Assembly (NCBI RefSeq): GCF_008807075.1
Contig: NZ_CP035632.1
Span: 1,612,001 to 1,676,000 of the forward strand
Source: Synechococcus sp. RSCCF101
GTDB taxonomy: Bacteria > Cyanobacteriota > Cyanobacteriia > PCC-6307 > Cyanobiaceae
Direction: 5' to 3'
Length of the DNA stretch: 64,000 bases
Part shown: in pieces, positions 13,420 to 17,957 of the stretch
Layout of the letters: every line of letters starts with the position of its first letter
Numbering within the stretch: the stretch's first letter is position 1
Position numbers and translations under genes: made by a program
Notes under the pieces: generated by a model
Told to the model about the DNA's origin: nothing
Databases searched by the model: none
The model's input: only the letters and a program-made list of their open reading frames with translations

Positions 13420-14313
13420 TCAGCCGCATCCCCGGAAGCTGGATCGCTCCTGGCCGGCCCGGCTCAGGGCGCTGTGGAGATCGGGCCAGCCGCCGTCCTG
13501 AACCAGTTGCTCGATCGCCTCGAGCTGATGCCGGCAGCGCCGGAGCGCGGCCAGCACCGCCGTGCCATTGGTCCGGGCCATCAACGTGCCCAGATCGGGA
13601 TTGCCGCCACCCACCCGGGTGGTGTCGGCGAAGCCGCTGGAGGCCAGTTGCCTGGCGAGGGCGGCCACACCGGCATCGCTCTCGTCCGCGGCGGCGAGCA
13701 GCAGCGAGGCACTGACCAGAACCGGAAGATGGGAGATCAGAGCCGCCGCCCGGTCATGGGTCGCCGCCTCAGCGGTGATCACCTCCGCGCCGACGGCCTC
13801 AGCCAGTCGCTCCAGCGCCTCGATCGCGCCGGGATCCGTGCGCGGGCCGGGCGTGATCACCCAGGGCCGGCTCCGGAACAGGCCGGGCAGCCCCGCCTCC
13901 ACCCCCGCGGCAGCCGTGCCCGCCATGGGGTGCCCCGCCACGAAGCGCGGGTGCAGGTCCTGCCACAGGGCGAGCACCGGTGCCTTGACCGAACCCACAT
14001 CCGTCACCACGGCCTCCCGCGGCAGCGCCGCCACCAGAGCCGCGGGTGGCGCCAGCAGGCGATCGAGGGGCAGAGCCAGAACCACCAGCCCGCAGCCTGT
14101 GAGAGCGGCCGGATCGGTGTCCACCCGCGTGGCCAGGCCGCGTTCCCGCGCACGGCGGGCCGTGGCTTCGCTGCGCACGATGCCCTGAACGGCCCAGCCG
14201 GCGGCCTGCAGATCCAGCCCCAGGGAGCCACCGATCAGACCCAGGCCCACGATTCCGACCCTGCCGGGGCACCTGTGCGAACCCGCTGCCGGCGCTGGAG
14301 CTGGCTCTGTCAT
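13420..14313 (-). CDS. tyrA: Prephenate/arogenate dehydrogenase
   Basis: Oxidative decarboxylation in the tyrosine branch of aromatic synthesis; cyanobacterial enzymes usually act on arogenate with NADP. The Rossmann motif is VGIVGLGLIGGSLGLDL near residue 20, then VVTDVGSVK, VAGHPMAGT and DRAAALISHLPVLVSASLL. ATG at 14313 is chosen over a TTG one codon upstream. The 297-residue length is typical of the monofunctional enzyme with no chorismate mutase or ACT domain. The stop lies seven bases from the crtD stop. Confidence 0.92.
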   Translation of the reverse strand: MTEPAPAPAAGSHRCPGRVGIVGLGLIGGSLGLDLQAAGWAVQGIVRSEATARRARERGLATRVDTDPAALTGCGLVVLALPLDRLLAPPAALVAALPREAVVTDVGSVKAPVLALWQDLHPRFVAGHPMAGTAAAGVEAGLPGLFRSRPWVITPGPRTDPGAIEALERLAEAVGAEVITAEAATHDRAAALISHLPVLVSASLLLAAADESDAGVAALARQLASSGFADTTRVGGGNPDLGTLMARTNGTAVLAALRRCRHQLEAIEQLVQDGGWPDLHSALSRAGQERSSFRGCG

Positions 14314-14355
14314 CAACGAACGGTGCAGCTGGCTTCAGCTTCGTACCATCCGCCG

Positions 14356-15816
14356 ATGCAGGAAGCCGCGGCCCACGCCCACCTGAAGCGACTGCTGCGG
14401 CAGCAGGGGGAACCGCGCTGGGCCCATCACCTCACCCTGAGCCGGCTGGCGGCGCGGAGCCTGCGTCGCGGCGACCACACGCTCGTGACGATCGCGCCGG
14501 GCAGCGACCCGAGCTGGATGCTCGGTCTCCTGGTGCCGATGGCCCTGAGCGGACGGGGCACCGCTCTGGTGCTCAGCGATCGCCTACGCCGCCGGCTGCT
14601 GCAGGTGGAGGCCGTCCAGATCGCCTCAGCCGGCCTGCCCATGGCCTGCTGGGAGGGGCGGACGCCCCCCGGAGATGAACAGTGCTGGCTCCTCAGTCAT
14701 CAGGAGTGCCTGGCCGCGGCCAGCGCTGGAGATCTCGCTGACCGGCCCCTGGTCATCCCCGAGGGCGAGGAGCTGGTGTCGTCGCTGCGCCAGGCCATGA
14801 CGCTGACGCTCGCGGCAGCCGACTGGGAGCGACTGCGGCGCGCCCATCCCGCCGCGGGCAGCGACCTGCTGGAGCTGCACGAACGGCTCACGCGTCGCGT
14901 TCTGCCGGCCGGCGGCGCACCCGGAGGGAGCGAGCGGGTGATGCTGCGGCCGGAGGAGAGCGAACCCCTGCGGCGCCGCCTCGCCGGCCTGGAGGATCTG
15001 CCGGAGCCGTGGCAGCGCTGGCTCAGCCTGCCCACCGGCAGCTGGACCAGCTGGGCCAGCGTCGATCGCCCCATGCTGCAGTGGCAGTGGCACCACCAGC
15101 CGCTGGAGCCCCTGCAGGCCTGCGCCCCGCTGTTCCACCGCCGCGGCGTGATCGTGGCCGACAGTTCCGGTCTCGGCGAGCCGGCCGGACTGAGCGACGG
15201 GCACCCGGCCGGCTTCGCAGCCACGGTGCGCGTCCAGCTGGGCACGCCGGCCCTGCACGATCCGCTGCCCCTCTACCTGCCGCGGCAGCAGCCGCTGCCC
15301 AACGGGCCGGCCTATCCCTCCCATCTGGCGGACGCCTGCCGGAAGCTGATCCTCGGCCGCGGCGGGCTGACGGTGGTGGTTCTCGACGATGCCGACCTGA
15401 GACGCCGGCTGCTGAGCGAGCTGGCCGCCGACTTCGGCCGGCGGGTCGTGCTGGAGGAGACCGCGCCCGACAGCAATGGCGTGCTCTGCTGCGGCTGGAG
15501 CTGGTGGATTGAGCACCAGAACCGCCTGCCCGTTCCGGACCAGCTGGTCGTGGCCCTGCTGCCGATCGCGAGCCTGGAAGACCCGTTGACGGCGGCTCGG
15601 GTCGAGGCCTGCAAGCGCAACGGCAACGACTGGTTCCGCAGCCTGCTCCTCCCCGAGGCCCTGGCAACACTGCAGCGGGGCACCCTCGCCCTGCGGGGCA
15701 GGGAGGACGCTCGCCTGGCGATCCTGGACGGACGGGTACGGGCCCGCAGCTGGGGCCGGGAGGTTCTGCGCGCTCTGGAGCCCTGGCAGCCTCTGCTGCG
15801 GCTGCGCCCCCGCTGA
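14356..15816 (+). CDS. DinG/Rad3-like helicase-domain protein, probably degenerate
   Basis: The frame is open far upstream but coding character and a sensible ATG begin at 14356, giving 486 residues. The C-terminal third resembles the DinG helicase C domain: LTVVVLDDADLRRRLLSELA, then LLPIASLEDPLTAARVEA, KRNGNDWFRSLLLPEAL and LAILDGRVRARSWGREVL. No Walker A GxGKT/S can be found at the N-terminus (TIAPGSDPSWMLG sits where it might be), and the arginine-rich motif VI is altered to LQRGTLALRG. It may therefore bind DNA or RNA without unwinding it. I recall similar proteins in other picocyanobacteria. Confidence 0.65.
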   Translation: MQEAAAHAHLKRLLRQQGEPRWAHHLTLSRLAARSLRRGDHTLVTIAPGSDPSWMLGLLVPMALSGRGTALVLSDRLRRRLLQVEAVQIASAGLPMACWEGRTPPGDEQCWLLSHQECLAAASAGDLADRPLVIPEGEELVSSLRQAMTLTLAAADWERLRRAHPAAGSDLLELHERLTRRVLPAGGAPGGSERVMLRPEESEPLRRRLAGLEDLPEPWQRWLSLPTGSWTSWASVDRPMLQWQWHHQPLEPLQACAPLFHRRGVIVADSSGLGEPAGLSDGHPAGFAATVRVQLGTPALHDPLPLYLPRQQPLPNGPAYPSHLADACRKLILGRGGLTVVVLDDADLRRRLLSELAADFGRRVVLEETAPDSNGVLCCGWSWWIEHQNRLPVPDQLVVALLPIASLEDPLTAARVEACKRNGNDWFRSLLLPEALATLQRGTLALRGREDARLAILDGRVRARSWGREVLRALEPWQPLLRLRPR

Positions 15817-15900: not shown

Positions 15901-16140
15901 ATGGGGGAGGCACGACGGCGCGCGGTACAGGGGCTCCCTCCGCGCACGAGCAAGCGGAAGCCGGACACCTCACCGCGGATCGCCCCCTGGCTGCCCCTGA
16001 CCCAGGACCAGGCTCAGCGGTTCGTGCAGCTCACGACCCGTGGGGCCTGGATCGGCATCGCCGCGCTCGTGCTGGGCTGGATCACCGTGCGGTTCATCGG
16101 ACCGGCCGCCGGCTGGTGGACGCTGGCGGACATGCCGTAG
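15901..16140 (+). CDS. DUF2839 small membrane protein
   Basis: A 79-residue protein that begins MGEARRRAVQGLPPR, has a basic N-terminal half and one hydrophobic segment (WIGIAALVLGWITVRFIG) before a short PAAGWWTLADMP tail. This matches the cyanobacterial DUF2839 family as I remember it; no function is known. The charge distribution predicts the basic end in the cytoplasm. Confidence 0.8.
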   Translation: MGEARRRAVQGLPPRTSKRKPDTSPRIAPWLPLTQDQAQRFVQLTTRGAWIGIAALVLGWITVRFIGPAAGWWTLADMP

Positions 16141-16249: not shown

Positions 16250-16615
16250 ATGTTCACACGTCTCGCCGAAACCTATCGAGGGGTTGTCCAGGACCTTGTG
16301 CTCAGCCTGCAGGCCCTGGCCCTCAGCCTGAAGCAGCAGGGTCTGGCGGCCACCTGCTACGTCTGCGGAAACGGCATCGATGGCCGGGGCGCCTCCTTTG
16401 TCGCCGATCTCGGCGACGGCCACATGGTGCGCTTCCTGGTCTCCGACAGCGGCATCAGCTGGCTGGAATCGCGCAATGGTCGCGAACTGGTCCGGCTGGA
16501 CGGCGCCGAGGCGATCGGGGAACTTCAGCGCATCGCCGCCTTCCTGCAGACCGGTCCGACCCGACCGGTCAGGCCGGACCGGGCTCCCCACCCAGTGGTC
16601 GAGCGCCCGGCCTGA
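16250..16615 (+). CDS. DUF1815 protein
   Basis: A 121-residue soluble protein starting MFTRLAETYRGVVQDLVLSLQAL, with two cysteines in CYVCG and a conserved-looking GHMVRFLVSDSGISWLESR. This is the cyanobacteria-restricted DUF1815 family; function unknown. The last 20 residues (after IAAFLQTG) are Pro/Arg-rich and look unlike the family core. The stop is 14 bases from the convergent recA stop. Confidence 0.8.
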   Translation: MFTRLAETYRGVVQDLVLSLQALALSLKQQGLAATCYVCGNGIDGRGASFVADLGDGHMVRFLVSDSGISWLESRNGRELVRLDGAEAIGELQRIAAFLQTGPTRPVRPDRAPHPVVERPA

Positions 16616-16629
16616 ATCGATCAGACCGC

Positions 16630-17832
16630 TCAGCGGCCCCCGGTCACTGCGGCCGCCGGGCTGGCCGGAGCAGCAGCGCCCGGATCGGCTCCAGCAGTTC
16701 CCGGAGCGTCCGGCCGCTTCGTTGAGGCCGCGGCCTCCCGCGCCGCGGCCGCCAGCGGTTTCATCGAGTTGGATCGCACATCGGCGCCTTCGGTCAGACG
16801 GCGGCGTACTTCCGTCTCGATCGTCTGGGCCGGCTCGCTGTTCTGCTCCAGCCAGCCGATCGTGTTGTCGCGACCCTGGCCGATGTTGTCGCCGTTGTAG
16901 CTGTACCAGGCGCCCTTGCGGATCACCACCCCCGTCTCCTCGGCCAGATCGAGCAGGCATCCGAGCGTGCTGATGCCGCGTCCGAAGAGGATGTCGAACT
17001 CCGCGATTCGGAAGGGCGGCGCCACCTTGTTCTTGGCCACCTTCACCTTGGCGCGGATGCCGTATTCCTCGGTGGCCCGTTTCAGGGTCTGAATGCGACG
17101 GATGTCGAGCCGCACCGAGGCATAGAACTTGAGCGCGTTGCCTCCCGTCGTGGTTTCGGGGCTGCCGTAGGTGACGCCGATCTTGAGCCGCAGCTGGTTG
17201 AGGAAGATCACCGTGCAGCCGGACTTGCCGATGTTGCCGGTGATCTTGCGCATGGCCTGACTCATCAGGCGGGCCTGGCTGCCCACGGCGAGATCACCCA
17301 TCTCCCCCTCGATCTCCGCCCGGGGCGTGAGGGCGGCCACCGAATCCACCACCACGATGTCCACGGCACCGGAACGCACCAGCTGGTCCACGATCTCCAG
17401 CGCCATCTCGCCGGTGTCCGGCTGGGACACCAGCAGGTTCTCGATGTCGACCCCGAGGGCCGCGGCGTAGACCGGATCCAGGGCGTGTTCGGCATCGACG
17501 AAGGCCGCCACCCCCCCCCGGCGCTGCACCTCGGCGATCGCATGCAGGGTGAGGGTGGTCTTACCTGAACTCTCCGGCCCGTAGATCTCCACGACCCTGC
17601 CCTTGGGATAGCCGCCGCCCAGGGCGAGATCGAGAGTCAGGGCACCGGAGGAGATGGTCTCCACCCGCATGCGGGAGGCATCCCCGAGCCGCATGATCGA
17701 GCCCTTGCCGAAGTTGCGCTCGATCTGGCCGAGGACGGAGGAGAGGGCCCGGTCCCGCTCCGCCTGCTGAGCATCCTGCTGGCGGCCGTTGGCGGCGGCG
17801 CGGGCGGCACTGCCCTTGAGTTCGACTGGCAT
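16630..17832 (-). CDS. recA: Recombinase RecA
   Basis: ATP-dependent strand exchange and recombination repair. Walker [10 protein letters not shown], the block [13 protein letters not shown], Walker [14 protein letters not shown]2-region [16 protein letters not shown] and KNKVAPPFR are all present. ATG at 17832 ([12 protein letters not shown]) is used; a longer frame upstream has no family support. The final 45 residues are an Ala/Pro-rich tail replacing the acidic tail of E. coli RecA. The last 25 residues are likely disordered. Confidence 0.97.
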
Positions 17833-17957
17833 GGCGGAGAACAACGAGGAAACGACGGGACGGGGCCGGACCACGATCATCGCGGGACCGGACGGCCATC
17901 CCAGACACAGGTGCCACCAAATCGACGGCCCGCATCAGAGCAAGGCACTGATACAGA

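Follow-up and report, generated by a model that had tools for sequence, protein, structure and literature searches.

The closest described systems are the XPD-family SF2 helicases DinG and YoaA, the CasDinG protein of type IV CRISPR systems, and a cyanobacterial short form of DinG. The last was named sDinG (short-type DinG) in section 3.9 of a 2025 review by Cheng: a protein with two motor domains plus an arch, present in Nostocales, Chroococcidiopsidales, and Pleurocapsales (PMC11981726). That section doubts the ATPase function of sDinG, and states that no functional study of it exists. ATP could not be placed in the review's model of Nostoc sDinG, and ssDNA was modelled on the second motor domain only. 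In the same single Nostoc model an additional helix lies at the ATP site, following strand 1 and preceding the next helix; the section does not call it defining. The underlying search used E. coli DinG as query (E 1e-5) against a single strain of each order (PMC11981726), a design that may explain missed divergent members.

Here we describe a gene in a window (the whole 64-kb stretch of DNA analysed) from Synechococcus sp. RSCCF101. Its product shares with the sDinG of the review section the two motor domains, a compact arch, the lack of an FeS or pseudo-FeS domain, the missing ATP-binding residues, and a cyanobacterial source (PMC11981726). The two accounts differ in range: three orders there; here the Synechococcus/Prochlorococcus-type family, with a reach to Gloeobacter-like genomes. 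They differ also in the ATP-site helix, which is absent from AlphaFold2 models of the window protein and of a second homolog (L038), built with another program from other sequences. CasDinG likewise has the DinG fold without an FeS cluster, but is an ATP-dependent translocase and helicase according to the sources (PMC10450177, PMC11981726).

The window protein agrees with the description of sDinG, and its membership in a class-wide family and in a single clade of 21 rows suggests orthology to the Nostoc PCC 7120 protein of the review; we use that name. The family appears to be wider than the review section states (PMC11981726). Among the matches listed in the literature search, only this review was recognised as describing sDinG, and an earlier description is possible. 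Five points seem new here: near-universality in the class, members of the Synechococcus/Prochlorococcus type, rare coexistence with canonical DinG, frequent linkage to DUF2839, and the fixation of new residues described below.

Reading frame and fold

The gene is an intact open reading frame on the plus strand, with ATG at 14356 and a stop that ends at 15816. Most homologs match from residue 1-4 on, backing this start. The parts referred to below are as follows.

14356 to 15816, plus strand: sDinG gene, 486 aa plus stop (open reading frame, homolog matches, profile-profile alignment)
14356 to 14808, plus strand: RecA1-like domain, residues 1-151, ATP-site residues lost (limits read from the AlphaFold2 model, motifs from the joint alignment)
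14419 to 14466, plus strand: place of the Q motif, residues 22-37; W22 in 59/59 homologs vs Arg in 18/18 canonical DinG
14488 to 14523, plus strand: place of the Walker A loop, residues 45-56; Lys absent in 59/59 (gap-rich stretch, register uncertain)
14749 to 14778, plus strand: place of DExH, residues 132-141; PEGE in the window protein
14809 to 15042, plus strand: arch remnant, residues 152-229 (about 78 residues), the least conserved block (AlphaFold2 model, approximate limits)
15043 to 15813, plus strand: RecA2-like domain with the strands leading into it, residues 230-486 (approximate limits, AlphaFold2 model and joint alignment)
15421 to 15447, plus strand: family-specific block, residues 356-364, LAADFGRRV in the window protein; G361 and R363 fixed in 59/59
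15493 to 15537, plus strand: place of motif V, residues 380-394; Glu-Gly lost (joint alignment)
15664 to 15696, plus strand: place of motif VI, residues 437-447; finger Arg lost, R447 fixed in 59/59

Family models recognise the protein faintly. Pfam Helicase_C_2 matches its C-terminal part at E 0.019 (15.5 bits, cut-off 25.3); the best NCBIfam match, YoaA, covers residues 306-477 at E 1.6e-13, with 50.2 bits far under the cut-off of 680. Helicase_C_2 reaches E 0.01 or better in 36 of 53 aligned homologs. Annotation would thus tend to label sDinG an ATP-dependent helicase, YoaA and DinG being its best family matches.

Profiles extend the homology. When a profile of the 53 homologs was compared with one built from 18 canonical DinG/YoaA proteins, the alignment ran from residue 21 to residue 485 of the window protein (probability 100, E 1.2e-41); a second match to canonical DinG was whole-length (E 3.5e-47). 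Because the profile-profile alignment spans residues 21-485, the window protein is DinG-derived throughout, N-terminal half included. Searched against PDB sequences, the profile matched only E. coli DinG within E 1 (6fwr, E 2.5e-8).

Two RecA-like domains with DinG topology are present, according to AlphaFold2, Foldseek, VIA-align, and the profile alignment. The AlphaFold2 model, made from the 53-row alignment, has a mean pLDDT of 93.3 and a pTM of 0.91; L038 belongs to a different family of the class, and its model (pLDDT 92.5) shows the elements in a similar order. DinG structures rank first in Foldseek (6fws_B, E 1.1e-18; 6fwr_A, E 2.8e-18). The top VIA-align match is 8zef_A (Z 23.8, rmsd 4.0 over 470 residues), and other SF2 helicases follow further down, at Z of about 15.

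The preliminary description of this locus, made from the sequence alone, had noted a long intact reading frame, and all 486 codons are indeed uninterrupted. It had also likened the C-terminal half to DinG helicase C. That likeness stands, and has to be extended to the N-terminal half. Structure prediction and fold comparison, which it proposed as a check, returned a complete two-RecA fold with DinG as the best PDB matches.

The ATP site and its replacements

DinG and YoaA are thus homologous to the window protein along its whole length and in fold, but it lacks their Walker A, DExH, motif III, motif V Glu-Gly, motif VI, and FeS domain, and has a shorter arch. To count the losses, 59 homologs were aligned jointly with 18 canonical proteins in MAFFT, and residues present in 18/18 canonical rows were scored. 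The Walker lysine (Lys60) is retained in none of the 59 homologs; its place holds W (29), Y (20), H (7), F (2), or C (1). An aromatic residue or His is therefore found there in 58/59, a count that depends on the alignment of a gap-rich P-loop stretch. Other sites are kept in a minority of rows: Asp248 (23/59), Glu249 (28/59), and His251 (6/59) of DExH; Thr461 of motif III (3/59); and Glu596 of motif V (6/59), where Gly597 is kept in 0/59 vs 18/18. In motif VI, Gln652 and Gly655 are each kept in 3/59, Arg656 in 1/59, and Arg659 in 0/59, each being present in 18/18 canonical rows. Motif VI can be shifted by one position in the alignment: R447 falls opposite Ile658 in hhalign and MAFFT, and by eye Arg659 is possible. 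The FeS domain cysteines of E. coli DinG, C194 and C199, lie opposite gaps in 59/59.

String searches agree. In the window protein and the 59 aligned homologs there was no P-loop in place, no DExH or DExD, and no QxxGRxxR (0/59 vs 18/18 canonical). One of the two Walker patterns used missed E. coli DinG, whose loop starts with Ala; the other allows Ala. Candidate loops elsewhere were rejected: GK[ST] occurs in 3/59 (L026 at residue 269, L099 at residue 185, L105 at residue 21) and GxxxxGK in one homolog (L016, residue 266), all away from the P-loop place. The single row that keeps Arg656, and with it the motif VI finger Arg, is L099 (349-1773, genome G444). The same genome also has a canonical DinG, and L099 is possibly an intermediate.

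Loss is accompanied by fixation. W22, W157, G361, R363, and R447 are invariant in 59/59; among the 18 canonical rows, W22, G361, and R447 occur in none, W157 in one, and R363 in six. Fixation of these new residues (W22, R447, G361, R363) went together with the loss of the ATP site, and adds to the published description of sDinG. Among equal-length windows along the alignment, conservation is high at residues 22-37 (percentile 1.0), 425-436 (0.99), and 355-364 (0.98), with the motif VI and DExH places at 0.69 and 0.63.

Could the remodelled cleft still bind a nucleotide or another small ligand through unusual residues, making the protein a sensor or a slow enzyme? The fixed W22 and R447, and the aromatic or His at the Walker lysine place, suggest a cleft that was not simply eroded. 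However, conservation at the P-loop and motif III places falls below that of most equal-length windows (percentiles 0.25 and 0.28), the P-loop place varies in length among homologs, and the Nostoc model of the review did not accommodate ATP (PMC11981726). We consider such a ligand improbable.

The window protein is instead predicted to have no ATPase activity. The preliminary description was right that Walker A is missing and motif VI altered, and both changes extend across the family. Its further suggestion, that the protein is kept as a non-helicase, is consistent with the complete fold, the family-wide loss of ATP-site residues, and the selection values given below, as far as loss of ATPase activity can be read from sequence.

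Some DinG residues are retained in 59/59: W384, F427, P433, D458, and R460. The E. coli counterpart of F427 in the alignment is F638, and this residue stacks on a deoxyribose of bound ssDNA (PMC6300356, section 6). Other E. coli DNA contacts fare differently. F615 is F in 14/59, R211 lies opposite a gap in 58/59, and the R117 stretch is missing, which suggests that binding to DNA may also have been lost. The retained RecA2 residues may be purely structural.

Distribution, descent, and selection

With the window protein as query, homologs were found in 54 of 60 relatives. The other six (G007, G019, G021, G025, G033, G058) gave no match, in a profile search likewise; four of these are 53-90% complete, and G025 (95%) and G058 (99%) look like true absences. 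Across 386 genomes of the phylum the profile matched in 195: 183 within the class of the window's genome, and 12 in other classes. Matches within the class have E 3.7e-111 or better, and the 12 outside it E 2e-43 or worse; ten of these 12, when searched again, proved to be longer frames (639-1021 aa). Homologs are thus present in 183/186 sampled class genomes, a figure that rests on 171 unlisted genomes belonging to other classes, as the order of the list suggests. A scan of genome contigs gave only 3 loci. A tblastn search for phage carriers yielded hits in 7 records of Listeria and Bacillus phages, all partial and none covering more than 24% of the query.

The class genomes listed as having no match (G058, G324, G386) all belong to family f23. 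A profile search found five further f23 genomes without sDinG (G456, G465, G473, G522, G541). All eight, from 5 genera, keep DUF2839, and so represent a natural deletion. Because the f23 genomes lack the gene, sDinG is dispensable in that family.

Canonical DinG is itself scarce in the class. Helicase_C_2 at E 1e-10 or better was found in 10/194 class genomes, of which families f13, f57, and f58 account for eight; in the window's own genome a search at E 0.001 found no Helicase_C_2. sDinG and canonical DinG occur together in few genomes, mostly basal ones. The label Gloeobacter-like used here comes from family f13 (genome G048), which we take to resemble Gloeobacter violaceus. Genome G510 has a Helicase_C_2 match of 44.9 bits in an 883-aa frame (L097, C12:106829-107251), and an ordinary sDinG (L102) elsewhere.

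In a 39-row tree (quick search, SH-aLRT support only, midpoint root, long stem), 21 sDinG rows lie on one side of a branch of length 2.17 with SH-aLRT 100. The f13, f57, and f58 rows fall outside the group of the other 15 sDinG rows (support 97), within which the f4 row branches first; with the midpoint root, the Gloeobacter-like lineages are basal in the sDinG clade. Because the 21 rows form one clade with f13, f57, and f58 outermost, the data would fit one origin before the class radiated, then vertical descent.

Purifying selection, a second check proposed in the preliminary description, is evident across close pairs. Nei-Gojobori dN/dS of sDinG is 0.053-0.175 in 42 non-identical rows of 49 pairs (7 were dropped: one genome twice, identical), rows that are not independent, some genomes being repeated under two locus ids. 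The neighbouring tyrA gives 0.048-0.331 in the same rows. With 10 chosen pairs pooled, residues 1-151 have a pN/pS of 0.098, residues 152-229 of 0.132, and residues 230-486 of 0.110. The RecA1 domain is thus under the same constraint as the rest of the protein, despite its missing ATP site.

These values bear on whether sDinG is a decaying pseudogene in the course of being lost. All catalytic motifs are gone, divergent copies exist (L050, 24% identity), and f23 lacks the gene; but the matches listed contain no internal stops, and the low dN/dS, the per-domain pN/pS, and the presence in 183/186 class genomes rule out decay for the class. We give this explanation almost no credence.

Neighbourhood and proposed role

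The genes around sDinG are as follows.

13420 to 14316, minus strand: tyrA (prephenate dehydrogenase domains), divergent neighbour
15901 to 16140, plus strand: DUF2839 gene, frequent sDinG neighbour, downstream
16250 to 16615, plus strand: DUF1815 gene, neighbour
16630 to 17880, minus strand: recA, neighbour in most same-family loci (named from translation)

In most loci of the window's family the order is crtH, tyrA, sDinG, DUF2839, (DUF1815), recA. The DUF2839 product is small, with one hydrophobic stretch read from the translation.

How might a helicase without a motor be used? sDinG is a shortened DinG/XPD-type protein that retains two RecA-like domains and a small arch, but neither the FeS domain nor the residues for ATP binding and hydrolysis. 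In the mechanism we propose, this protein, inherited vertically in the class, would act without ATP, its two RecA-like domains forming a fixed, non-cycling body that holds a partner. sDinG is probably a retained, ATP-independent binding or scaffold protein of this kind. The partner may be a nucleic acid, a proposal to which we give a little under even weight. Because the RecA2 face is conserved, and part of it touches ssDNA in E. coli DinG, a nucleic-acid clamp or adaptor is suggested.

The main rival to a nucleic-acid partner is a protein partner, with no nucleic-acid role at all: the dead helicase body would be a structural subunit, perhaps with the DUF2839 product. DUF2839 is found in 191/194 class genomes, and lies within 600 bp downstream of sDinG on the same strand in 13/13 same-family and 29/44 other genomes, counting genomes with both positions listed (29/45 if G441, left out and not adjacent, is added). 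A correlation study of marine metagenomes reports DUF2839 in one cluster with PsaL, a domain of photosystem I (PMC3597751). The loss of the F615 contact in most rows also agrees with a protein partner. Yet adjacency is missing in 15 of the 44 other genomes and in G441, some of these pairs sitting on separate contigs of draft genomes; and because f23 keeps DUF2839 without sDinG, the linkage is suggestive only. A purely protein partner is possible, but we find it rather unlikely.

Returning to the clamp or adaptor, the full history can be put forward only tentatively, and as a whole with considerable doubt. sDinG would be a cyanobacterial core protein with a single pre-radiation origin from a DinG-like helicase that lost its motor. 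W22, R447, and the aromatic or His at the Walker lysine place would have remade its ATP cleft, either as a joint that locks the domains or as a site for a ligand other than ATP. The resulting clamp or adaptor would need no ATP, and its gene often lies next to that of DUF2839. If sDinG does work without ATP, most genomes of the class do without a helicase of the DinG kind, and keep a motorless relative instead under strong selection. sDinG would then be a clean case of an ancient pseudoenzyme.

Some details of the locus may be added. DUF1815 lies between DUF2839 and recA in the window, and was not detected there in five same-family loci (L006, L009, L010, L012, L014). A strict sigma-70 consensus search of the 64-kb window gave 0 matches. 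tyrA (minus strand, start 14316) and sDinG (plus strand, ATG 14356) point away from each other, their listed starts separated by 39 bp, and may share a promoter region.
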